From: Phycisphaerae bacterium
Lineage (GTDB): Bacteria; Planctomycetota; Phycisphaerae; UBA1845
Length of the DNA stretch: 64,000 nucleotides
NCBI GenBank assembly: GCA_022072505.1
Contig: JAJVHU010000037.1
Span: 1-64,000, forward strand
Direction: 5' to 3'
The notes beneath the pieces are model-generated. The model saw only the letters and a program-made list of their open reading frames with translations, searched no databases and was not told the origin of the DNA. The translations under genes and the position numbers were made by a program. Shown here piece by piece: positions 3,379 to 45,462 of the stretch; position 1 is the first letter of the stretch, and each line of letters starts with the position of its first letter.

Positions 3379-5001
3379 ATGAACGTCGGATCAAACTTGA
3401 AGCTGGTTTATGTGTTGGGGGCGGGATTGTTGCTTGCAGGTCCGCGCGCGGACGCCGCGGTTCCGCAGGAGTGGACGCGACGCCTGCCTTCGGGCAGCAC
3501 GATGTATTCAGGCCTGACGGGGATGATCGTGGATGCGGCGGGCAACTCCTTCGTCGTGGGCAACGCAGGCTCGTCGGGCAACGTCGACATCCTCGCGGCC
3601 AGGTACGCCGCGGACGGAACGCTGGTGTGGTCGCAAACCTGGGACGGCGTGGAGCGCTGGCATGACACGGTCAGCGACGTGGCCCTCGGACCGGACGGCA
3701 GCGTCTACGCGGTCGGCTCGACGCCGGACCGGAATCGTTACGCGGACCTGCTCGTGCTCAAGTTCAACGCCGCGGACGGCGCGCTGATCTGGTCGAGGAC
3801 GTTCAGCGGCGGTCCCGGCATCTCGGATGCGGCGCTGGTCGTCACGACCGACGCCGAAGGCAACGTCTACGCCGGCGGTCACACCGTCGGCGACGGCGCC
3901 GACTGCCTCATCGTCAAGTTTGACGCTGACGGCGTCTTTCAGTGGTCGCAGACCTGGGACGGGCCGGCCTCCGCGCCGTATTCGCAGGAGGCCGTGCGCG
4001 ACCTGCTCATCGCGCCTGACGGCAATCTCGTCATGCTCACGGACGGCGTGATGGCGACGCTGCACCCCGACTACGTGGTCATCAAGTACGACGCCGCCGA
4101 CGGCGGCATGATCTGGTCGCGCAACTGGGGCGTCAGCGGCGGCGACTATCCCGTGGACATGGAGATCGACGCCGCAGGGGACCTCTACGTCACCGGCGAC
4201 GCGCTGAACAACGGAAGCGTCGAATACGGAACGATCAAGCTCCGCGGCGACGACGGCGCGCTGATGTGGGGGGAGTACGACGCCGCGGGGTTCCGCGAGG
4301 CCGCCTACGCCCTGGCGCTCGACGACGACGGGGGCGTGTACGTCACCGGCTGGAGCGACCCGCACGGCGACCAGAGCAAGTTCATGCACAACATCTTCAC
4401 GGTGAAGCGAGACGCGGCGACCGGCGCGCTGTTGTGGACGCATGAATACGGCGAGGCATGCCTGTGGTGTTACGACGCGGGCGGCGACCTCGTGATCGAC
4501 GACAGCGGGCACGTCTTCGTCGGCGGCGTAACAAGCTCTCCTCCGTATTCCTCCGACCAGATCCTTCTCGTGCTGGACGCCGGCACGGGTGTCGAGCTGG
4601 ACCGCGGCATCGTCTTCACGACGGGAAGCGAGTCCGCCGGCGTAAGCTTCGCCCGTCTCGACCGCGCGCAGAACCTCTACCTCGGCGGAAGCATCACCAA
4701 CTACGACACCGGCGCGGTGGACGTTCATGTGGTCAAGTACGCCTCGATGAGCGACGGCGTGGATTGCGCTGCGGTCCGCAAGCTCACCGCGAAGTGCCGC
4801 GATGGCAAGTTCACCGCGAAGGTCGTGTCCTCGCTGCCCGAAGGCACGGAGCTGACGCTGGCGCGCAACGGCGGCGACGAGAAGACGGTCACGATCAACG
4901 CCCGCGGCAAGGGCAAGGCGAAGTGGAACGGGCAATCCGGATCGCAACAGATCGTCATCGTGGAGTGTCCGACGGTCACCGCCGGCGCAGAGTGCGGATG
5001 A
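3379..5001 (+). CDS. Secreted SBBP/delta-60-like beta-propeller protein with C-terminal four-Cys module (copy 1, ~4762-4998)
   Basis: ATG after aaggagcagaagg; signal peptide MNVGSNLKLVYVLGAGLLLAGPRADA; repeated 'GNVYAGG..', 'GDLYVTG..' propeller repeats; C-term DCAAVRKLTAKCRDGKFTAKVVSSLPEGTELTLARNGGDEKTVTINARGKGKAKW. Confidence 0.85.
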   Translation: MNVGSNLKLVYVLGAGLLLAGPRADAAVPQEWTRRLPSGSTMYSGLTGMIVDAAGNSFVVGNAGSSGNVDILAARYAADGTLVWSQTWDGVERWHDTVSDVALGPDGSVYAVGSTPDRNRYADLLVLKFNAADGALIWSRTFSGGPGISDAALVVTTDAEGNVYAGGHTVGDGADCLIVKFDADGVFQWSQTWDGPASAPYSQEAVRDLLIAPDGNLVMLTDGVMATLHPDYVVIKYDAADGGMIWSRNWGVSGGDYPVDMEIDAAGDLYVTGDALNNGSVEYGTIKLRGDDGALMWGEYDAAGFREAAYALALDDDGGVYVTGWSDPHGDQSKFMHNIFTVKRDAATGALLWTHEYGEACLWCYDAGGDLVIDDSGHVFVGGVTSSPPYSSDQILLVLDAGTGVELDRGIVFTTGSESAGVSFARLDRAQNLYLGGSITNYDTGAVDVHVVKYASMSDGVDCAAVRKLTAKCRDGKFTAKVVSSLPEGTELTLARNGGDEKTVTINARGKGKAKWNGQSGSQQIVIVECPTVTAGAECG

Positions 5002-5128
5002 GGAACAACGCGCGGACGCGGCGATGCGTCGGTGCATCGTTCGGTCCGCCGGAGTCGAGGCCTGCGGCAAGCGGTCGTCGGGCATCGAGGGGCAGCCTGG
5101 CAGCCTGATTGAAAAGGGGGACGAGATC

Positions 5129-6529
5129 ATGAGAAAAAAACAATACGCCTTGATCGGGTCGATCGGAGTTCTTCTATCGAGCGTCGCCGGCGCGGCGCCG
5201 CCCTGCGGGGAGTGGACGATCCACCCGACGCAGGATCCCGGCTCGGAGACCAACCTTCTCGTCGACGTCGCGTTCCGCACGCCTGCGGACGGACTGACGG
5301 TCGGCAACTGGACCGGCGACGGGTTGTCGCGCGTTCCGATGGCGCAGCGGTGGGACGGCGCCGACTGGAGCATCGTCGCGCTGCCGGATTTTTCATCGTT
5401 CGGCACGCAGCCGGCCGTCGAGGGCGTCGGCCGGGTCGGCGACAGCCTGTGGATCGCGGGCTACGTCACGACGGGGTATCCGACGAACAACCTGCCGGTG
5501 ATGGCCCGTTGGCGCGACGGATCGTGGGACCGGGTCTCGACGGCCACGCTGCGCAAGCAGAACACCTATCCCTTCGCCGATCGCGGCGGATTCGGATGGG
5601 ATGTCGCGGGCGTCTCGGACGACGACTTGTGGGTTGTGGGAACGGCCGTCGGATACGGTGACGGGCAGACCTCATCCGTTGCCCTCGCCCTGCATTACGA
5701 CGGATCCGGCTGGGAGGACGTCGAAGTCCCTTATGTGGGCAATCGGTCCAACCGGTTTTACGCCCTCTCCGTCAGCGCCTCGGACAATGTCTGGGCCGTG
5801 GGGGAGTGGCGCAACATCGGCGGACCCTTTCAGGCCTACATCGGGCGGTGGGACGGATCCCGGTGGGAAATCATTCCGAATCCCGGCGAAGGTCCGTGGA
5901 CCGGCGATGCCGAGGCGGTCATGGCGTTCGCCCCCGACGATGTCTGGGTCAGCGGTTTCTTCAACAACAGCGCCGACACGTTGATCCACTGGGACGGTTC
6001 GGACTGGACCGTGGTGGATTCCGGCGCGCCGGGCGTCTTCGCCGCGTTCGCGGCCACCGGACCGGACGACCTCTGGGCTTCCTCGCCGATGGATGCGACG
6101 TTCTACCACTACGACGGCGTGCAGTGGTCCCCTGCCGGCGGACTGCCGATCCCGGATTCGCAATACATCCTGCGCGGCTGGGGGATGGACGCCCTCGGAA
6201 CGTGCAGCGTCTGGTCGGTCGGCGGGTGGTCGGACGGCGTCGTGCAGTACGCGCTGGCGGAGCAACTGTCGGGCGGGGGCGCCGTGGACTGCGGCGCGGT
6301 CCGCAAGTTCAACGCGAAATGCCGCGATGGGAAGCTGACGGCCAAGGTTGTCTCATCTCTTGCGGAAGGCACGGAGCTGACGCTTGCGCGCAACGGCGGC
6401 GACCCGAAGACGGTGACGATCAACGCCCGCGGCAAGGGCAAGGCGAAGTGGAACGGGCAGTCGGGGGCACAGGACGTCTGCGTCGTTGAATGTCCGGAAA
6501 CACCCTGTGCGACAGCGGATTGCGGGTAG
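5129..6529 (+). CDS. Secreted propeller-like protein with C-terminal four-Cys module (copy 2, ~6287-6526)
   Basis: Signal peptide MRKKQYALIGSIGVLLSSVAGA; repeated 'DDLWVVG', 'DNVWAVG', 'DDVWVSG' blocks; shared C-terminal module. Confidence 0.85.
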   Translation: MRKKQYALIGSIGVLLSSVAGAAPPCGEWTIHPTQDPGSETNLLVDVAFRTPADGLTVGNWTGDGLSRVPMAQRWDGADWSIVALPDFSSFGTQPAVEGVGRVGDSLWIAGYVTTGYPTNNLPVMARWRDGSWDRVSTATLRKQNTYPFADRGGFGWDVAGVSDDDLWVVGTAVGYGDGQTSSVALALHYDGSGWEDVEVPYVGNRSNRFYALSVSASDNVWAVGEWRNIGGPFQAYIGRWDGSRWEIIPNPGEGPWTGDAEAVMAFAPDDVWVSGFFNNSADTLIHWDGSDWTVVDSGAPGVFAAFAATGPDDLWASSPMDATFYHYDGVQWSPAGGLPIPDSQYILRGWGMDALGTCSVWSVGGWSDGVVQYALAEQLSGGGAVDCGAVRKFNAKCRDGKLTAKVVSSLAEGTELTLARNGGDPKTVTINARGKGKAKWNGQSGAQDVCVVECPETPCATADCG

Positions 6530-6588
6530 GAGCCGCAACTCCTGGCGCCTGGACACGGCATGAATCGGATGGGGAAAGGAGACAAGTC

Positions 6589-8460
6589 ATGAGATGGATA
6601 TGGGCAACCCTGGCGATCACAGCGCTCATCGGTCGGGCCGCAAGCGCCCAAGTGATTACGGTGACCACGTCCGCGGACGTGGTCGATTTCCAAGGCGCTC
6701 AGCAGGTCGGCGATCTGCCCGGACCCGATGGCAAGGTCTCTCTGGCTGAGGCGGGGTTGGCCTCCGACAACACGCCCGGCGTTCAGACGATCGGTTTCGC
6801 CGTCCCGCAGGGCGAGTGGGAATACCAGTGGTTGTTTCCGGGTCGTGTCGTATTGCGCCCGTTTCTTGGGTTTCGCGTCTTTGACACGGCCGTCCTGGAC
6901 GCGACCACGCAGACGGAATTCACCGGAGACACGTATTCCGATGGAGGGGAAGTCGTCATCTGGGCGGAGACCTACCTGATCGACAACATCGGGGGCGAGA
7001 TGCGCGGTTTCGACAACACGAGCATCAACCTCAGCGGCGGAACGGGCAACATCATTCAATCGAACAGCGCCAGCAACATCACCGTCTATGATTCGTCCTT
7101 CAACCTCATCGGCGGCACGCATCCGGGAGAGGGGAACACCGGAGGCACGATCAAAATCGACCGCGCCTCGCATAATGTCGTTGTGGGCAACACCTTCAGC
7201 CGCGTGCGGATTCTCGGGTGGTTGGGGGGCGGTCAGCCCGCGGTCGGGAACCGCGTCGGCGGGTCTTCGCCCGATGAGCGGAACTACATCACCGGTTACG
7301 GAACCTTCAACGGAGAGGGCTGCCCGGGCGGAACGACCGTCCAGATCTTCGACAGTCTGGACACGATCATCGAGGGCAACTGGATCGGCACAACCCCCGA
7401 CGGAATGCGTCAGGGGAACAACGCCTCGGTCGTCGGCGTCGGGTTTGAGGGCGAGAACCACGGGGCGATGATCCTGAACAACCGCATCGCCGGAATCCTC
7501 GCCCGAGGATACGACCACTGCCGCAACTATGTCGCCGGTTATGCGATCGCCCTCTACGGCGCCGGGGGGGATTTCGTGATTCAGGGCAACAGCATCGGAT
7601 TGAACGCCCTCGGCGAGCCGGTGCTCGGCAGCGTCACCGGCATTGCGAGCTTTGATTATTACCTCGGTCCGGTCCGGGACATTCTCATCGGCGGACCCGG
7701 CCCCGGCGAAGGCAATGAGATCGCCGGCCACCTCGCCAGCGGCATTGAGATCGTCAACCCCCTGGCGGGAATCCGCATCTCCGGCAACTCACTTCATCAC
7801 AACAGCAGTCTGGGGATAGACCTTGTTCCCGCGAGCTTCGAGCGCGGCGTCACCCCGAACGACCCCATGGACGGTGATTCCGGAGGAAACGGGCTGCAGA
7901 ACTTTCCCGTCCTGAGCGAAGCCGTCCGCCGAGAATCCTCCGTGCGCGTGATCGGCGCGTTCAACAGTCGGTCCGAACGCTCGTACACGCTCGAGTTTTT
8001 TGCCGGCGCGGAATGCGACGCGACCGGCTACGGGGAAGGCGACCGGTTCCTGGGGGCGGTTCAGGTCGTCACGGATGTCGCGGGCGATGCTTTGTTCGAC
8101 GCCGTCGTCCCCGGCGACGTCGTAGTCGGCGAATTCCTGACGGCGACGGCCACGGACAACGCGAGCGGAGAGACGTCGGAATTCTCCGCATGTATTGAAA
8201 TCGCCGGCAGCGCCATCGATTGCGGCGCGATCCGGAAGTTCACCGCGAAATGCCGCGACGGGACGCTGACGGCGAAGGTCGTGTCCTCCCTGCCGGAAGG
8301 CACGGAGCTGACGCTTGCGCGCAACGGCGGCGACCCGAAGACGGTGACGATCAACGCCCGCGGCAAGGGCAAGGCGAAGTGGAACGGGCAGTCGGGCGCG
8401 CAGGCGCTTCGCATCGAGGAGTGCCCCGAGGTTCCCGAAGCATCAACGACCTGTCCGTAG
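6589..8460 (+). CDS. Secreted right-handed beta-helix-like protein with C-terminal four-Cys module (copy 3, ~8218-8457)
   Basis: Signal peptide MRWIWATLAITALIGRAASA; CSLREA-like N-terminus (ITVTTSADVVD...VSLAEA); beta-helix-type repeats (NIIQSNS, VVVGNTFS, IEGNWIGT); shared C-terminal module. Confidence 0.83.
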   Translation: MRWIWATLAITALIGRAASAQVITVTTSADVVDFQGAQQVGDLPGPDGKVSLAEAGLASDNTPGVQTIGFAVPQGEWEYQWLFPGRVVLRPFLGFRVFDTAVLDATTQTEFTGDTYSDGGEVVIWAETYLIDNIGGEMRGFDNTSINLSGGTGNIIQSNSASNITVYDSSFNLIGGTHPGEGNTGGTIKIDRASHNVVVGNTFSRVRILGWLGGGQPAVGNRVGGSSPDERNYITGYGTFNGEGCPGGTTVQIFDSLDTIIEGNWIGTTPDGMRQGNNASVVGVGFEGENHGAMILNNRIAGILARGYDHCRNYVAGYAIALYGAGGDFVIQGNSIGLNALGEPVLGSVTGIASFDYYLGPVRDILIGGPGPGEGNEIAGHLASGIEIVNPLAGIRISGNSLHHNSSLGIDLVPASFERGVTPNDPMDGDSGGNGLQNFPVLSEAVRRESSVRVIGAFNSRSERSYTLEFFAGAECDATGYGEGDRFLGAVQVVTDVAGDALFDAVVPGDVVVGEFLTATATDNASGETSEFSACIEIAGSAIDCGAIRKFTAKCRDGTLTAKVVSSLPEGTELTLARNGGDPKTVTINARGKGKAKWNGQSGAQALRIEECPEVPEASTTCP

Positions 8461-8528
8461 AGGGCAGGCCAGGGCATAACCGGAACGCGGCGTCGCCCGT
8501 AACGGCGGCGTTGCAAGGAGGACTGGGC

Positions 8529-9776
8529 ATGAGCATTCGAATCAAACTGATCGGCGTTGTGCTTTGCATCGCGGCTCGGGCGGGAGCCGATGTTCCCACG
8601 TATCGGGTCGACTACCTGGGCGACGGTTGGACGGGAACGGGGATCAATCGCCACGGCGACGTGTGCGGGAGCATGTCGCCGGACGGCACGGCGCTGCTGG
8701 CGGGAGTCTCGAAGGGAGGAGCGCCCTTTGAGTTCCTTCCGCTGCCCGAAGGCATGCAGAGTTCCCGGGCGCATGATATCAATGATGAGGGCGTCATCGT
8801 CGGAGCGGTCTGCCCGGACCAGTACGTGATTACCGCGCCGACGGCGGCCGTCTGGCGGCCGACCCCGGAGGGATACGAGGTCGAGGTTCTCGAACCGCTG
8901 CCGGGCGATCCCTTCTGCGCCGCTTACGCCGTCAACAACGTCGGAGACCTCATCGGCGCCTCGGGGTTCTGGGGCTGGAACCTGTCCACCGGCGTGCAGT
9001 TCACCGGCGAGGGCACGGTGCGGCTGCCGGAGGGAATGCTCAGCGGAGACATCAATGACGAGCGGATGATCATCTCCAACAATCGCCTGCTCGATCTGGA
9101 CACGGGTGAACTGACGGTCTACGACCTGCCCGAGGGCAACTGGCAGGGCTTTGTCGCCGCGGCGCTGAACAACAACAACGACTTCTGCGGATACCTCCTC
9201 GGGTATTCCGGTTGCAGCACGTTTCCGATGCGCTATCGCCAGGGCGTCGGCTGGGAATTCCTCGGCGGATGTGCAACCACCACCAGCGCGACCGCGATCA
9301 ACGACCGCGGCGACGCCCTGAGTTATTACTACTACACCGCATCAGGTGTGACCTTTGTACCGGAGGGCTACTTCGGGCTGGGCGAACTGATCGACGGATC
9401 GCAGGGCGAATACTACGTCCAGTGGGGCGGCGCCAACGGCATCAACAACAACCGCCAGATCGTCGCCGCGGCGCGCAACGGCTTCAACGGTCCGATCGGG
9501 GCGATCCTCATGAGCCCGATCAACGCCGGTCCGGACTGCGGCGCGGTCCGCAAGTTCACCGCGAAATGCCGCGACGGGAAGCTGACGGCGAAGGTCGTGT
9601 CCTCGCTGCCGGAAGGCACGGAGCTGACGCTTACGCGCAACGGCGGCGATGAGCAGACGGTGACGATCAACGCCCGAGGCAAGGGCAAGGCGAAGTGGAC
9701 GGGGCAGACGGGCGCCCAGCAGGTTTGCATCGAGGAGTGTCCGGAGTCGCCCTGCACATCGGCGGACTGTTCATGA
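8529..9776 (+). CDS. Secreted HAF-repeat-like protein with C-terminal four-Cys module (copy 4, ~9534-9773)
   Basis: RBS aaggagg before ATG; signal peptide; HAF-like motifs (GINRHGDVCG, DINDEGVIVG, AVNNVGDLIG, GINNNRQIV); shared C-terminal module. Confidence 0.83.
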   Translation: MSIRIKLIGVVLCIAARAGADVPTYRVDYLGDGWTGTGINRHGDVCGSMSPDGTALLAGVSKGGAPFEFLPLPEGMQSSRAHDINDEGVIVGAVCPDQYVITAPTAAVWRPTPEGYEVEVLEPLPGDPFCAAYAVNNVGDLIGASGFWGWNLSTGVQFTGEGTVRLPEGMLSGDINDERMIISNNRLLDLDTGELTVYDLPEGNWQGFVAAALNNNNDFCGYLLGYSGCSTFPMRYRQGVGWEFLGGCATTTSATAINDRGDALSYYYYTASGVTFVPEGYFGLGELIDGSQGEYYVQWGGANGINNNRQIVAAARNGFNGPIGAILMSPINAGPDCGAVRKFTAKCRDGKLTAKVVSSLPEGTELTLTRNGGDEQTVTINARGKGKAKWTGQTGAQQVCIEECPESPCTSADCS

Positions 9777-9857
9777 CGAAGTCGAAGGGCGCTGACGGAA
9801 CTGGAAGCGGCGGAACGGATGGATCGCGATCAAGACATTCAATCGGAGATAAACGCA

Positions 9858-11309
9858 ATGCGGCGCAAGTGGGAAAAAGCGGGTTTCGGGGTGTTCGGGT
9901 TCCTCGTGCTGTCGGCGCCGGTGGCGCGGGCGCAGGAACTGCTCTGGGTTCATGACGTCGGCGGATCGTATCCCGACGGAGCCTTCGCGTTGGACGCCGC
10001 GGCGGACGGCGGTTTCATCGCCGTCGGATTCACCGGGTCGTTCGCCACCAGCGGGGTGAATGACGTGTATGTGGTCAAAACCGACGCGATGGGGCAGGTT
10101 CAGTGGACGCAGGTGATCGGCGGACTGCCGAACCGCAGCGAGTACGGCCGGGCGGTGCGCCAGTTGCCGGACGGGGGTTACGTGATCGCCGGGTATTATG
10201 AGGTGACGCCGCAGATTCATGACGCGATGGTGATCCGCCTCGATCCGTCGGGAAATGTGGTGTGGCTGCGGACCTACGACTCCGGTTTCGGGACCGACGA
10301 TCGCGCGCATTGCGTCACGCCCACGTCGGACGGCGGGTTTCTCGTCGGCGGACAAGCGCATCTCCAGGAGACCGAATTCTGGAATTACGACATGTACGTC
10401 TTCAAGATCGACGGGAACGGCGTGCTTCAGTGGCGCCGGTTCTTCGATTACGCGCAGGGGTATTACGACAACGCGGACATCGCCTTCGAGGTGATCGAGG
10501 TCTCGACGGGCGGCTATCTCGTCGCGGGCTGGACGCACAGCGCGGGCTGGGACGGGTGGGTGCTGCGTCTGGACGACGCGGGGAATCGGCTCTGGGATCG
10601 CGCCTACGGCGAGGCGTACTCCGACGAGATTCTCTCCGCGCAGGAAGTCTCGACGGGCGGCTTCATTTTCTCAGGCGTGAACGCGTCGGACAACGGCGAC
10701 ACCGACTTCTGGTTGTTCCGCACGGACGAGACCGGCGACGTGCTCTGGGACAAAAAGTGGGGCAAGAACACCGGATTCCAGTGTGAAGATCAGGCCAACG
10801 AGGTGCGTGAGTTGCCCGACGGCGGGTTCATCGCCGCGGGACAGACGTCGTCGTACGGCGCGGGGGGCTGGGACCAGTACTTTGTCCGCACGGATGCCGA
10901 AGGCAATACTTTGTGGACGCGCGTCTACGGAGGCGCCTCGGATGACCGCGCATTCGCCGTCGTTCCCGCGCCGGGCGGGGTGGTCGCCGCGGGGTGGGCC
11001 TACTCCTTCGGCAACGGGCACGGCGACGTCCACCTTCTGAAGCTCGCCGATCCTTTCGGCGGACCCGATTGCGACGCGGTCCGGAAGTTCAAGACCGCCT
11101 GCCGCGACGCCCGACTGACCGCCAAAGTCGCTTCGTCGCTGCCTGAGGGAACGGAGCTGACGCTGGTCCGCAACGGGAGCGACGCACGCACTCTCGTGAT
11201 CAACGCCCGAGGGAAAGGCAAAGTCAAGTGGGTCGGGTACACCGGCGTGCAGGAGGTCTGCGTCGTGGAATGTCCGGAGGTGGCGTGCAGCGCCGCGGAT
11301 TGCATGTAA
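9858..11309 (+). CDS. Secreted delta-60-like propeller protein with C-terminal four-Cys module (copy 5, ~11067-11306)
   Basis: Signal peptide MRRKWEKAGFGVFGFLVLSAPVARA; repeats 'ADGGFIAVGFT', 'PDGGYVIAGYY', 'SDGGFLVGGQ', 'PDGGFIAAGQT'; shared C-terminal module. Confidence 0.85.
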   Translation: MRRKWEKAGFGVFGFLVLSAPVARAQELLWVHDVGGSYPDGAFALDAAADGGFIAVGFTGSFATSGVNDVYVVKTDAMGQVQWTQVIGGLPNRSEYGRAVRQLPDGGYVIAGYYEVTPQIHDAMVIRLDPSGNVVWLRTYDSGFGTDDRAHCVTPTSDGGFLVGGQAHLQETEFWNYDMYVFKIDGNGVLQWRRFFDYAQGYYDNADIAFEVIEVSTGGYLVAGWTHSAGWDGWVLRLDDAGNRLWDRAYGEAYSDEILSAQEVSTGGFIFSGVNASDNGDTDFWLFRTDETGDVLWDKKWGKNTGFQCEDQANEVRELPDGGFIAAGQTSSYGAGGWDQYFVRTDAEGNTLWTRVYGGASDDRAFAVVPAPGGVVAAGWAYSFGNGHGDVHLLKLADPFGGPDCDAVRKFKTACRDARLTAKVASSLPEGTELTLVRNGSDARTLVINARGKGKVKWVGYTGVQEVCVVECPEVACSAADCM

Positions 11310-11612
11310 AGGGTGCGGATCAACGTCACGTCCGGTCTCCAGCGCGATCCGCCTGCGCAAGGACAAGCGGCTCCTTCCCGGCGCGATCCGGGGAGAATGA
11401 GACAAGGATATCGTGAGTCAATGATGTTGCAGCGGGCGGCGCACGCAGGGAAGCGACCTTGCGTCCTGACGATCGCGCCCCGGCTGCAACGGGTTTGAGA
11501 AACGCCGTGCGTGCGGCGGGTCGGGTTCATGACGGCGGCGCATCGGGAGGGGCGAGGCGGGACGGGGCGCCCGCACTCCGATCCCGGATGATGCGGCCCC
11601 GAAGGAGAGATC

Positions 11613-13322
11613 ATGATGCTTCGTTTCAGATTAGACGCAGGAATTCTCGCACTGGCGGTGGCGGCGGTGGCGGCGAGCGCTCAGCCGGTCATTCATTCGA
11701 TCAACCGTGACACGCTGCCGCGCAGCGGAAGGCTGGCGATCACCGGCTCAGGGTTCGGGACGCGCAGCGATGTCAACCGCGTCGACGTGGACGGCGCGAC
11801 CGCGTGGTTCACCACGTGGACGGACACGCGCATCGTCGCCTACGTCCCGGAGGCGTCGGACCTGGGACCGGCGGAGGTCAGGGTCATCGTCAACGGACAG
11901 GAGAGCAACGCCGCGTCCTTCACCGTGACCGCCCGGCAGGGCGACGGGCGCGTCCGGTGGACGTTCGAGGCCGACACCGACAACCTCTGGTTCCGCCCGG
12001 CGCTCGCCCCCGACGGCACACTTTATCTGCACAGTTCGCAAGGGTTTGTGTACGCGCTCGCGCCCGACGGCGCGCTGAAGTGGACGCAGAAGGTCAACTG
12101 GTATCCCTACGCGCCGCCCGCCGCCGGTCCGGACGGCACGGTCTACGTCGGCAGCATCTGGAGCGCCTTCGCCATCTCGGCGGCGGGACAGATCCTCTGG
12201 CAGTTTGACGACCCGGAGGCGCAGGCCGTGCAGATCGTCCCCTCGCCGGGACCGGACGGACATCTTTACGGCGTGTTCGAGCCTGGCGACCCCGGCCTGG
12301 GCGCTTACTCGCTGACTTCGGGCGGGCAGTTCCGCTGGAACAATATTGGCAGCCCCAGGATGCACGAGCACGGCGGAGACGGCGCCGACATGGTCTTCGG
12401 ACCTTCGCGATCCGGCGGTCCTGTCGATCAGCTCTACATCGGCATGGACCTCCGCGGCAACAACCACTTGTACGCTTTCTCCCTCGACGGGCAGCAGCGC
12501 TGGGCGATCCCCGTCGGCCCCAACAATGCGGGCGCGCAGCCCGTCATCGGGCGGGACGGTTCGGTGTACACGCCGGACTTCATCGCCTCGGGTTACGGCT
12601 GGGTCATCCGCGGGTTCGATCCGTCGGACGGGTCCGACCGGCTCTTCTATGACGGCGATTTCATCAGCGGCGTCAGCCGCTTGAGCATCGGTCCGGATGA
12701 CACCTTGTATTATGTCGCGGACCTCGGCTACCTCGAGGCGCTGAATCCGCACACGGGCGATCTGCGATGGAGCAACTTTACCGGCCACGTGCTCAGCGCG
12801 CCCGAGGTCAGCCCCGACGGCCGCGTCATCCTCACGTCCGGCACGACCACCTACGGCAGCGCCGGTTTCGTCAAGGCGTATGACGCGGCGACGGGCGCGG
12901 AATTGTGGCATCTGCCTCTGCCCGGCGACGATTACCCGGCGCCGCGCTGGCTGGGCACGCACTTCCCGCGCATGACGCCCGACTCCCGAACCGCTTATGT
13001 CAGTACGTTGGCACTTTCAGCGGGCGATCAGGATCCTCACTCCTTCCTTTACGCCCTGGACATCGCGGACGATTCCGGCATGAACTGCGACGCCATCCGA
13101 AAGTTCAAGACCGCATGCCGCAACGGCAAACTCACGGGAAAGGTCGTCTCCAGCCTGCCCGAGGGCACGGTGTTGACGGTGACCCGCAACGGCGGCGACG
13201 CGAAGACGCTGACGATCAACGCCCGAGGCAGGGGCAAGGTGAAGTGGACGGGACAATCGGGCGCGCAGGAACTCCGCATTATCGAGTGCCCGCAGCAGTT
13301 CGAGCAGACGAATTGTTCCTGA
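11613..13322 (+). CDS. Secreted IPT/TIG + PQQ-like beta-propeller protein with C-terminal four-Cys module (copy 6, ~13083-13319)
   Basis: IPT-like N-term (PVIHSINRDTLPRSGRLAITGSGFG); PQQ-like repeats (PDGTLYLHSSQGFVYALAPDGALKW); shared C-terminal module. Confidence 0.85.
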   Translation: MMLRFRLDAGILALAVAAVAASAQPVIHSINRDTLPRSGRLAITGSGFGTRSDVNRVDVDGATAWFTTWTDTRIVAYVPEASDLGPAEVRVIVNGQESNAASFTVTARQGDGRVRWTFEADTDNLWFRPALAPDGTLYLHSSQGFVYALAPDGALKWTQKVNWYPYAPPAAGPDGTVYVGSIWSAFAISAAGQILWQFDDPEAQAVQIVPSPGPDGHLYGVFEPGDPGLGAYSLTSGGQFRWNNIGSPRMHEHGGDGADMVFGPSRSGGPVDQLYIGMDLRGNNHLYAFSLDGQQRWAIPVGPNNAGAQPVIGRDGSVYTPDFIASGYGWVIRGFDPSDGSDRLFYDGDFISGVSRLSIGPDDTLYYVADLGYLEALNPHTGDLRWSNFTGHVLSAPEVSPDGRVILTSGTTTYGSAGFVKAYDAATGAELWHLPLPGDDYPAPRWLGTHFPRMTPDSRTAYVSTLALSAGDQDPHSFLYALDIADDSGMNCDAIRKFKTACRNGKLTGKVVSSLPEGTVLTVTRNGGDAKTLTINARGRGKVKWTGQSGAQELRIIECPQQFEQTNCS

Positions 13323-13372
13323 GTCAGACCGCGCTGCTCCGTGAGCAACGCCGCGCACCGCGTTGAGGGAAT

Positions 13373-13402
13373 CCGCGCGCCGTAGGGGGCTACGGCGCGC
13401 GG
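13373..13402. other. Perfect 13-bp inverted repeat (hairpin) with GGGG loop
   Basis: ccgcgcgccgtag-gggg-ctacggcgcgcgg read directly, ~50 bp after the stop of 11613..13322; no U-tract, so terminator role uncertain. Confidence 0.8.
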
Positions 13403-13727
13403 CCGCAACGAATCCGGCTGCCCCCCGTGTCAAACCCGAATTGAGCCTCCCCGTGAATCGGCCTTGGGCGCGATTCTGCGCTATCGCGCGGTATGAATCG
13501 TGCAGCCTGTTTTGGTCGTAAAGCCTGCCCTTCGGATGGTTCGTGTGTCACAGGTCATCCCTTGGACCGTGGTCGCCGACCGTCTCGCCTCCGGATCCGG
13601 TACGTCACCCGCTCCCGCGGACTGATGGATGACCCTCCGCCGAACCACGCAAATAAGGGCGCAACCTTGATAACGCGGCGACGGGTCGCGGAAGGGTCGC
13701 GCCGTGATGCAGTGAAAGGTACGGATC

Positions 13728-14912
13728 ATGAAGCCGAACAGGATTCTTCGGAAGGCGGTCCTTGCTTGGGTCGCAGGCACTGGGGGGGGGTGGGCCTTCG
13801 CCCCGCCCGTTGTCAACGTTCCGGACCCCCTCAGTCGAGGAGAGTATGAGATCATCGCGCAGAACGACCTCGGGATGCACTGCATGAACGAGGACTTCTC
13901 GGAGCTGGTGATCCTGCCCCCGTATAACACCGTCCGCGCGCAGGTCATTCAGCGCCGACGCGAGCCGGATATCGTCACCGACGGGTTGACCCTCCGTTAC
14001 GGGTTTCCGTCGAACACCCGTTCAGCGGACAAGACGAATTTCTGGAAGTACTGCCCCCAGATCTTCGGCGTGACGCTGCCTCCCAACGTCGGGCTGACCG
14101 GACACGGCATGACCGGAACGCTGGACGCCCTGCCCCGGGAAGGGGTCTGGGAAGTGTCGGGCATTCCGATCACGCCTTTTGACGATCGCGGTCGCCTTCA
14201 GCCTTATCCGCTCATAACGATCATCGCGCTGAAGGATGGAGCGGAGATCGCGAGAACGCAGACGGTCGTTCCGGTGTCGCAGGAAATCACCTGCAATCTC
14301 TGCCACGTCACGCCGGGCGTTTCCACCGCGACCGACATCCTCCGCGACCACGACCGCCTGCACGGCACGACGCTCGAACAAAGCAAGCCCGTGCTCTGCG
14401 CCGCCTGTCACGCGGACCCGGCGCTGGGCGCGGAAGGCAACCCCGAGCTGCCGATGCTGTCCCACGCCATGCATGGCGCTCACGCGGCGCGGATGGATCA
14501 GAGCGGACTGGACAACGTCTGCTACGCCTGCCACCCCGGCATCCGCACGCAATGCCAGCGCGACGTTCACATGGCCGGCGAGGTTGAGTGCATCGACTGC
14601 CACGGCGACATGGCCGAGGTCGCCAGGCCTTCGCGCATGCCGTGGCTTCAGGAACCGAGTTGCGGATCGTGTCACGCGCGGACCGGGTTTGAGTTTGAGG
14701 AGCCCGGCAAGCTCTTCAGACATTCCCGCGGACACGGCGGCGTCGCCTGCCTGACGTGCCACGGCTCGCCCCACGCCATCACGCCGACGCTGACGGCGGT
14801 GGACAATGCGCAGTCGATGCGCGTACAGGGACGACCGGGCACGATCAACGATTGCCTTGTCTGTCACACCCGGCAACCGGAAGACAATTTCAGGCATCGG
14901 TTATTCAACTGA
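13728..14912 (+). CDS. Multiheme cytochrome c, 7 CxxCH motifs, exported
   Basis: CNLCH, CAACH, CYACH, CIDCH, CGSCH, CLTCH, CLVCH; N-terminal hydrophobic leader; motif QNDLGMHCMNEDFSELVILPPYN. Confidence 0.9.
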   Translation: MKPNRILRKAVLAWVAGTGGGWAFAPPVVNVPDPLSRGEYEIIAQNDLGMHCMNEDFSELVILPPYNTVRAQVIQRRREPDIVTDGLTLRYGFPSNTRSADKTNFWKYCPQIFGVTLPPNVGLTGHGMTGTLDALPREGVWEVSGIPITPFDDRGRLQPYPLITIIALKDGAEIARTQTVVPVSQEITCNLCHVTPGVSTATDILRDHDRLHGTTLEQSKPVLCAACHADPALGAEGNPELPMLSHAMHGAHAARMDQSGLDNVCYACHPGIRTQCQRDVHMAGEVECIDCHGDMAEVARPSRMPWLQEPSCGSCHARTGFEFEEPGKLFRHSRGHGGVACLTCHGSPHAITPTLTAVDNAQSMRVQGRPGTINDCLVCHTRQPEDNFRHRLFN

Positions 14913-14979
14913 GATCACGCGACCGCTCGCCGGACGCGCGACCGTCGCCCCCCTTTCCGGCCAGATCAGGAGATCGAAC

Positions 14980-16245
14980 ATGAATACTCGGGAAAAAAAG
15001 TGGATTTCGGCGGCAGTCGCGGGCGTCTCCGCGATGATGACCGCATCAACCCCGGCCGACGTGTTGTATCGAATCACGGACCTTGGAACCCTCGGCACGT
15101 CCCCGAGCCGGGCGTGGGGGATCGACGAAGTCGGCCGCATCGTCGGCGAATCTTCCGTGCGGCTTGATGAGGAGCACTTGCACGGATTCCTCTGGAACGG
15201 CGCGATCGTGGACCTCGGCGCGCAACCCGGGTGGCCGCACAGCATCGCCTTCGCCCTCAACAAGGCGGGACAGGTCGTCGGCCCCTCGTTCCGGCTGGGG
15301 GATATGAACGACGCCGCCACCCGGTGGGCGGAAGGTGTGATCGAACCGCTGGGAGCGTTTACGCCGCGCGCCTTGAATTCGGACTGTGTCGTCGCCGGGG
15401 TGCGCTACGTAGACGACGGCGCCGGGCTTTGGATGGAGCAGGCCGTCCGCTGGGAAAACGGCGCCCTGACGCCGCTCCCCACGCTGGGAGGGCAAAATGC
15501 CTGGGCGGCCGCGATCAACGACGCCGGCTGGGTCGTAGGCGCGTCGCAGATGCCGGATGAGGCGACGGTTCGCGCCGCCTTGTGGCTCGACAACGCGGTG
15601 TTCGACCTGGGCACGCTGGGCGGCGATTCGAGCCAGGCGCTCGCGGTCAACGCGTCGGGGTACGTGGTCGGGTGGTCGGACGCCGCCGACGGAACCCAGC
15701 ACGCTTTTCTCTTCGAGGTTGATTCCGGCGGAAACGTGACCGCGCGACGGGATCTGGGCGAACTGGGCGGCGGGACAAGTTATGCCTTCTCCCTGAATGC
15801 ATCCGGCGACGTGGTCGGAAGCTCCGACGACGCGGCGTTTCTCTGGACGATGGGAGAAATGATTGATCTGAACACACGCATTGATCCGCTTTCCGGGTGG
15901 ACCTTGAAAGACGCCGTCGCCATCAATGACGCCGGGCAGATCGCAGGTCGCGGAACCGTCGAGGGCGAATTCCACGCCTACCTGCTGACGCCCGGCGACT
16001 CCGTGGATTGCACCCGCATCCGCAAGCTCACCGCCCGCTGCGTGGACGGGAAGCTGACGGCGAAGGTTGTCTCCAGCCTGCCCGAAGGCACGGTGTTGAC
16101 GTTGACCCGCAACGGCGGCGACGCGAAGACCCTGACGATCAACGCCCGCGGCAGGGGCAAGGTGAAGTGGACGAAGCAATCAGGCTCCCAGATGGTCCGC
16201 GTCGTCGAATGTCCGGAGACCGCGACTCCCGTGAGTTGCCTCTGA
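14980..16245 (+). CDS. Secreted HAF-repeat-like protein with C-terminal four-Cys module (copy 7, ~16006-16242)
   Basis: HAF-type repeats (LGTLG...AWGIDEVGRIVGES, AINDAGWVVGAS, DLGTLGGDSSQALAVNASGYVVGWS); shared C-terminal module. Confidence 0.85.
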   Translation: MNTREKKWISAAVAGVSAMMTASTPADVLYRITDLGTLGTSPSRAWGIDEVGRIVGESSVRLDEEHLHGFLWNGAIVDLGAQPGWPHSIAFALNKAGQVVGPSFRLGDMNDAATRWAEGVIEPLGAFTPRALNSDCVVAGVRYVDDGAGLWMEQAVRWENGALTPLPTLGGQNAWAAAINDAGWVVGASQMPDEATVRAALWLDNAVFDLGTLGGDSSQALAVNASGYVVGWSDAADGTQHAFLFEVDSGGNVTARRDLGELGGGTSYAFSLNASGDVVGSSDDAAFLWTMGEMIDLNTRIDPLSGWTLKDAVAINDAGQIAGRGTVEGEFHAYLLTPGDSVDCTRIRKLTARCVDGKLTAKVVSSLPEGTVLTLTRNGGDAKTLTINARGRGKVKWTKQSGSQMVRVVECPETATPVSCL

Positions 16246-44571: not shown

Positions 44572-45462
44572 TTACGGGCAGGACGCCCCGGCCGACAGGT
44601 CGCACCCGTCCACCGTCACTTCGTGCGACCCGGAACCCGCCGGACACCACTTCGCCACCGCCTTTCCGTTGGCGTTCGTCGTCCGCGTCTGAGCCTCTCC
44701 CCCGTCAAGGCGGAAGATCGCGTCCGTGTTCGGGATCGCATTCTTCAGAATGCCTTTGACGTGGTTCCCGCAAGCCCGCGCCCGGCATCGCGCCTTGAGC
44801 TTCTCCCCGCCGTCGCACGGCGCGTCCACCGTCTCGCCCGACAGGTAGAACGCCCACTCATTGTCGGGTTGAAGGTTGAACACCTCCATCGTCACCCACT
44901 CTCCGCCGACCGTGCCGTCGCGGAACACGTCGAAGTTCCAGTACGCCCGCGACTCGTGGTTCGCCCAGCGCGTCGTCAGCAGGCTGTGCTTCCCCCCGCC
45001 GTTCGACAGCGTGATCAGGCTCCGCAGCGCCGCGAAATACCGCCCCGCCTCCAGCGTGACGTCGATGTCCATCGTGTTGCGGTACACGACCCCGAAGTTC
45101 GGATTGACGATCCCGCTGTCCTCGTGCGCCAGAGGCAGCGTGTGTCCCCCGGCGATCAACGCCCCCGGCGCGCCGTCTCCGCCGACCTCGTAAATGTACC
45201 AGTCTCCCCCGAGAATCTCCGCCTCGAAGTCCACGCTGTAAAACCCGATCTGCGTGATCCGCGTGCGCGACGTCAGCACGAAATCCTCCGCGGCGCAGCG
45301 GTACGAAATGAAGTCGTCATCCTCGGCCCGCGCCGCCGTCCAGGCGTCCTCCGACGTCTCAAGATCGTCCGGAAACACGTTGACGTTAACCCACGTAAAC
45401 TCCTCCGCCCGGACCGTGGCCGCGCCCAGCAATGCCAAAACGACCAGACCTCGCTTGAACAT
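44572..45462 (-). CDS. Secreted protein with divergent copy (8) of the four-Cys C-terminal module
   Basis: MFKRGLVVLALLGAATVRA signal; C-term CDGGEKLKARCRARACGNHVKGILKNAIPNTDAIFRLDGGEAQTRTTNANGKAVAKWCPAGSGSHEVTVDGCDLSAGASCP. Confidence 0.8.
   Translation of the reverse strand: MFKRGLVVLALLGAATVRAEEFTWVNVNVFPDDLETSEDAWTAARAEDDDFISYRCAAEDFVLTSRTRITQIGFYSVDFEAEILGGDWYIYEVGGDGAPGALIAGGHTLPLAHEDSGIVNPNFGVVYRNTMDIDVTLEAGRYFAALRSLITLSNGGGKHSLLTTRWANHESRAYWNFDVFRDGTVGGEWVTMEVFNLQPDNEWAFYLSGETVDAPCDGGEKLKARCRARACGNHVKGILKNAIPNTDAIFRLDGGEAQTRTTNANGKAVAKWCPAGSGSHEVTVDGCDLSAGASCP

Follow-up and report, generated by a model that had tools for sequence, protein, structure and literature searches.

Positions 3379 to 16245 of the window, by which we mean the whole 64,000-nucleotide stretch of DNA analysed, hold seven co-oriented open reading frames. 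Each encodes a signal peptide followed by an N-terminal region of its own and, running up to the stop codon, a C-terminal module. All lie on the + strand. Between signal peptide and module, g1 (3379–5001) encodes an SBBP/delta-60-type beta-propeller, g2 (5129–6529) a propeller-like domain, g3 (6589–8460) a beta-helix-like domain and g4 (8529–9776) a weakly matching HAF-like/DUF3466-like domain; g5 (9819–11309) carries a delta-60 repeat propeller, g6 (11613–13322) an IPT/TIG domain and a PQQ/BamB-type propeller, and g7 (14980–16245) HAF repeats, its orthologues in relatives having other C-terminal tails. A preliminary description, made from the DNA letters alone, had named a fold for each N-terminal region and called these folds unrelated. 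Family support was good for g1 (SBBP), g5 (delta-60), g6 (IPT/TIG and PQQ) and g7 (HAF, E = 7e-35) but weak for g2, g3 and g4. BLASTP among the seven N-terminal regions detected no mutual similarity apart from the SBBP part of g1 and the delta-60 part of g5, which are 25% identical; the N-terminal parts are unrelated except for this pair. The genes had also been called tandem; they are co-oriented but not contiguous, as copies 6 and 7 are separated by a multihaem cytochrome gene (13728–14912, +) that lacks the module. Its product is a secreted multihaem c-type cytochrome of the Cytochrome_C7/DmsE-like kind.

Open reading frames and alignment bore out the shared module of about 79 residues, which measures 79–80 aa throughout the array. 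It spans 4762–5001 in g1 (79 aa; Cys at 2, 12, 69 and 78; ending in ECG), 6287–6529 in g2, 8218–8460 in g3, 9534–9776 in g4, 11067–11309 in g5, 13083–13322 in g6 and 16006–16245 in g7, all on the + strand. The copies of g6 and g7 have 79 aa, and those of g2, g4 and g5 have 80 aa and six Cys, that is, an extra Cys pair; the g3 copy is closest to modules of SBBP genes in relatives. Thirty-five of 80 alignment columns are invariant, among them the four Cys that had been proposed as conserved, and pairwise identity ranges from 61 to 82% for protein and from 65 to 85% for DNA. The module had further been called basic, which holds in a mild form (11–14 K+R versus 6–10 D+E). An eighth, divergent module gene lies at 44575–45462 (−; stop codon 44572–44574) and encodes a signal peptide, an unassigned domain and a module ending in SCP. 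This eighth copy (44575–44823, −) is ~29% identical to copies 1–7 and retains the four core Cys.

The module is found far beyond the array. In the window genome (G000), a Phycisphaerae-type MAG of 4.67 Mb, a profile built from the seven array copies gave 92 matches at E ≤ 1, and a 37-member profile, applied at E ≤ 1e-3, raised the number to at least 128 copies, with 150 of 242 candidates scored; if the gene number is estimated at four thousand, at least 128 module proteins correspond to ~3% of the genes. Module E-values were about 1e-26 to 2e-30; the profile of the array itself gave 1e-44 to 1e-48. Because at least 128 copies with such E-values occur genome-wide, a chance origin of the likeness is excluded, and the genome-wide distribution likewise rules out tandem duplication local to the window as the origin of the module. 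One module subtype, DTFTVTLSDG...NSRGKGKAKFNNRPAGDSG...WGCGA...YxCP, is present in four loci on contigs C40, C22 and C20 (L049, L050, L053 and L058), often repeated with near-identical sequence, which suggests recent local amplification.

Placement at the C-terminus, which the preliminary description had expected to be strict, was seen in 118 of the 126 copies of the window genome examined in sequence context. Of these 118 terminal modules, 96 have the last Cys in penultimate position and 113 have it no further than two residues from the end. An exact Cys-Pro end occurs in 68 of 117 proteins and a Pro end in 84 of 117, against a background of 5% Pro in the partner part, and Pro-ending members form the majority in 16 of 29 clusters obtained at 45% identity. 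The eight mid-protein copies belong mostly to proteins that additionally end in a module, such as the HAF-module-HAF-module arrangement of L044 and L071 and the three consecutive modules of L216. The clear exception is L066 (FG-GAP-module-WD40), in which an internal module occurs without a terminal one.

The sequences support the view that the module partners are diverse and would be exported by Sec via their signal peptides. In a simple test, 79 of 103 module proteins showed a signal-peptide-like segment beginning with Met; a control stretch taken from these proteins did so in 15 of 103. Several of the 24 misses either run past the fetched stretch or have non-ATG starts. The partner domains among 62 full-length proteins include kelch (in 13), BNR, FG-GAP, WD40, HAF, SBBP/delta-60, PQQ, cupredoxin/halocyanin, choice-of-anchor J and V, a single Ser/Thr kinase and autotransporter-type repeats. 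The diversity of N-terminal partners noted within the array extends genome-wide to many unrelated exported proteins. The module is more positive than the partner part in 104 of 110 proteins. The eukaryotic-like Ser/Thr kinase (L043:1489–3270, contig C5 of the window genome) carries its module beyond a predicted transmembrane helix, presumably outside the cytoplasm. Another locus (L045:3306–3620, −) encodes a 99-aa protein that comprises nothing but a signal peptide and a single module; it lies next to a second module gene, and module-bearing frames of similar length (105–120 aa) are present in the congeners G001, G002 and G003.

AlphaFold2 was supplied with 27 sequences, drawn both from the window and from genomes of relatives. 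Copy 4 was confidently predicted as an all-beta, seven-strand Ig-like sandwich (mean pLDDT 90.4), and the same seven-strand fold was predicted for copy 8, at 29% identity (mean pLDDT 88.7). Core Cys 1 and 3 co-occur (p = 3e-4, from an alignment-based count), and the optional extra pair is complete in 18 copies, half present in 2 and missing from 95 (p = 4e-19). Because these Cys pairs covary, the pattern argues for disulfides in the module, including an optional third one. A beta-strand closing with Cys-Pro or Cys-x forms the end of the module, which has no PEP or IPTL motif and no hydrophobic helix.

Sequence searches of Pfam, NCBIfam and the PDB yielded nothing convincing for the module, and none of these three collections has a family that covers it. 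Matches to FliMN_C, AP2-mu and NDP-kinase-regulator families were at chance level, and PDB matches labelled 'Bagel' or 'Cell surface protein' indicate just generic beta sheets. Foldseek against the PDB returned 1826 matches with E-values reaching 10; none had E ≤ 0.001, and they reveal no fold homologue other than generic Ig-like domains. Of 37 copies, 12 matched Big_3_5 (PF16640) weakly, the best with E = 6e-5, a result compatible with a remote descent from bacterial Ig-like domains. The earlier statement that the module is not PEP-CTERM, LPxTG, a T9SS-type C-terminal domain (CTD) or dockerin agrees with the sequence tests: the modules did not match TIGR02595 (PEP-CTERM), PF00404 (dockerin) was not among the Pfam families listed in the module search, the combination of LPxTG, transmembrane helix and basic tail was absent from 118 terminal module sequences, and neither the 7 nor the 37 modules matched a CTD profile in NCBIfam at E ≤ 10 or among the Pfam families listed, leaving an assignment to the T9SS CTDs unsupported. 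We found no published description of the module in the open-licence literature.

We then considered the distribution of the module among relatives. Named genomes that carry it are BroJett003, MAG_25, SJ659 and SURF_32, which are Phycisphaerae/Phycisphaerales-type or Planctomycetota MAGs; judged by their identical open-frame lengths, they probably correspond to G001, G003, G002 and G031, respectively. G001 has 76 copies, and G000, G002, G003 and G031 have at least 92 each; 31 other genomes of the family have 0–2 copies each, and other families of the order have none, save one genome with 2. At a threshold of 1e-6, any match at all was found in 7 of 298 genomes of the class and 1 of 392 of the phylum, samples in which fewer candidates were scored per genome, such that singletons could escape but expansions could not. 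Massive expansion of the module is restricted to one genus and one sister genus among the genomes sampled.

Comparison of orthologous N-domains showed which tails the module has as counterparts. The HAF N-domain of g7 has orthologues in many relatives, and it is joined to the module in module-rich genomes only (G000, G002, G003 and G031). Its next-closest orthologues, at 44–49% identity (G054, G048 and G053), end in dockerin-like tails. Other HAF orthologues end in PEP-CTERM (G040, G057, G009 and G021), in dockerin-like tails or in CG-x-G/transmembrane/Arg tails. In profile checks, the tails of G040 and G057 scored above the PEP-CTERM cut-off and those of G048 and G027 at or above the dockerin cut-off; the dockerin-like tails of G054 and G053 score below it. 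Choice-of-anchor V proteins carry the module in the genus and, elsewhere, IPTL/XrtH-like tails (sub-threshold) or dockerin (above cut-off), with fused cytochrome domains defining a third class. In related genera, PEP-CTERM, IPTL-like, CG-x-G/transmembrane/Arg and dockerin tails evidently fill the slot that the module occupies here. The C-G-x-G, transmembrane and Arg-rich tail, seen on HAF-type proteins of several sister genera (L115, L120, L122, L124 and L133), has no clear NCBIfam CTERM match and is possibly another undescribed sorting tail.

Known tails are also scarcer where the module abounds. Module-rich genomes have 5–7 PEP-CTERM matches versus a median of 17 in the remaining family (Mann–Whitney p = 5e-4; per Mb, 5e-5; phylogeny ignored) and 5–21 dockerin matches versus a median of 41 (p = 1e-3, phylogeny ignored); this contrast, drawn from MAGs, represents at most one or two independent evolutionary events. 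Exosortase is retained in two copies in G000 and in the other module-rich genomes, which rules out the module as a substitute for a lost exosortase.

Matched genes in the syntenic arrays of related genomes have N-domains that are, for the most part, 72–91% identical to their counterparts in the window, but the modules do not track these N-domains. The module of g3, the beta-helix gene, is ~90% identical in DNA to those of SBBP genes in BroJett003 and MAG_25 (L088/L089) and less like those of its own N-domain orthologues; the module of the HAF gene in BroJett003 clusters with those of the delta-60 type (support 93), and the g6 module is nearer to that of g7 than to those of the PQQ orthologues of g6. 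These comparisons make it clear that modules have been swapped between adjacent genes, the N-domains remaining orthologous. The modules are therefore interchangeable between partners, as a common address tag predicts.

We infer that the module is probably a lineage-specific C-terminal sorting or attachment domain that places or holds exported proteins at the cell surface. In the proposed course of events, Sec would export the proteins through their signal peptides, a step that the sequences support, and the last ~80 residues are predicted to fold into a compact Ig-like beta-sandwich with two, sometimes three, disulfides. The folded module ends almost exactly at Cys or Cys-Pro. Its basic RGKxKxK strand, its fixed Cys-Pro end or both may be recognised by an envelope component, for which an envelope receptor, a translocon or an anionic surface polymer are candidates, and this partner would deliver the proteins to the cell surface or hold them there. 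The preliminary description had proposed a surface-sorting, anchoring or matrix-binding tag; terminal placement, diverse exported partners, the lack of a match to any known family, the Ig fold, tail replacement and the scarcity of the replaced tails speak in part for such a tag, with anchoring as one putative role. The eight internal copies count against the tag reading, and so do the kinase and the protein made up of signal peptide and module, since a pure sorting signal requires neither of the latter two, and Ig-like domains are frequently plain binding or spacer domains. More tentatively, the module might be the address label of an undescribed Phycisphaerae-type sorting or secretion/attachment system with a dedicated translocon, sortase or receptor, which would have largely displaced the PEP-CTERM/exosortase and dockerin routes.

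A possible but doubtful alternative is that the module serves adhesion or matrix binding in general, much like a dockerin or CBM. Its bearers would then be exported in the ordinary way, with no part for the module in this step, and the module would bind them non-covalently to anionic exopolysaccharide, LPS or a scaffold protein. A positive module on acidic partners with a conserved lysine-rich strand (RGKxKxK), the Ig-like fold with its weak Big_3_5 similarity, the presence of dockerin-like tails, themselves an attachment domain, in the nearest HAF orthologues, and the existence of a stand-alone module protein would all suit such a domain, which nevertheless leaves the last Cys/Pro at the exact C-terminus and the rarity of internal copies unexplained. 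The 65–85% DNA identity of the copies, the clear module swaps between neighbours and the compact, disulfide-stapled fold could instead reflect a cap that is selfish or merely neutral: a recombinogenic 3′ cassette that gene conversion and domain shuffling would have spread because it caps or stabilises beta-rich secreted proteins, with no common destination. We regard this as unlikely: copies at about 25–30% identity retain the four Cys and often the terminal Cys-Pro, so the constraint on the module is old, and a neutral cap would not predict the module in the slot of known sorting tails on orthologues. The module resembles the RgpB CTD (PMC4804311) in size, in its place at the C-terminus and in its seven-stranded Ig-like fold, which raises the case for a divergent type IX secretion CTD, with a bona fide T9SS in these planctomycetes. 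However, neither NCBIfam at E ≤ 10 nor the Pfam families listed gave a CTD-model match (TIGR04183, PF18962 or PF13585), and SprA_N was matched in 0 of 60 relatives, with control genomes likewise giving no match. Four conserved Cys are not known as a hallmark of T9SS CTDs, and we consider this origin very improbable.

Returning to a sorting or attachment domain, comparison with known systems yields partial likenesses. The CTD of RgpB is a seven-stranded Ig-like C-terminal T9SS export signal (PMC4804311). T9SS CTDs and the module are both ~80-residue C-terminal Ig-like sandwiches with a constrained extreme C-terminus on many unrelated Sec-exported proteins, but they do not match in sequence, and the module has four core Cys, a frequent terminal Cys-Pro and a planctomycete host. 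The PEP-CTERM/exosortase system (TIGR02595/TIGR02602), present in the same clade, likewise tags diverse signal-peptide proteins at their C-termini, and either tag occurs on HAF N-domains; unlike PEP-CTERM, the module is folded, soluble and Cys-rich, without a transmembrane helix or PEP motif, and the exosortases of module-rich genomes show no link to it. Type I dockerin (PF00404), another attachment domain placed at the C-terminus, is carried by the nearest HAF orthologues and, in relatives, by choice-of-anchor V proteins, and is scarcer where the module is abundant. It is a calcium-binding two-helix repeat, which the all-beta, disulfide-bonded module lacks. Big_3_5 (PF16640) is a probable distant fold relative that shares the hairpin pattern xNGKAxx...GxHTV, although the similarity appears to lie beneath family-level membership; Big_3_5 domains are usually internal tandem repeats without four Cys or a fixed C-terminus. 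On our best reading, the module would act like a T9SS CTD or dockerin while being unrelated in sequence to both.

Protein placement on the unusual planctomycete envelope is poorly understood so far. One tag on at least 128 proteins, confined to a small clade and apparently displacing known tags, provides a clean phylogenetic contrast. Comparison of module-rich and module-poor sister genera should expose the cognate machinery, much as phylogenetic profiling led from the PEP-CTERM tag to exosortase (PMC1569441). Set beside the T9SS CTD, the module suggests that Ig-like C-terminal sorting domains arose more than once.

Elsewhere in the window, a 33-bp repeat, GGTTCGCGCGGGCTGAAGCCGTGGGGAGGCGGA, occupies positions 257–573 in 9.6 copies that are 98% identical. 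The repeat array lies directly upstream of an ABC-permease gene (624–2330), and its frames read as RGLKPWGGGGS or GFARAEAVGRR repeats.
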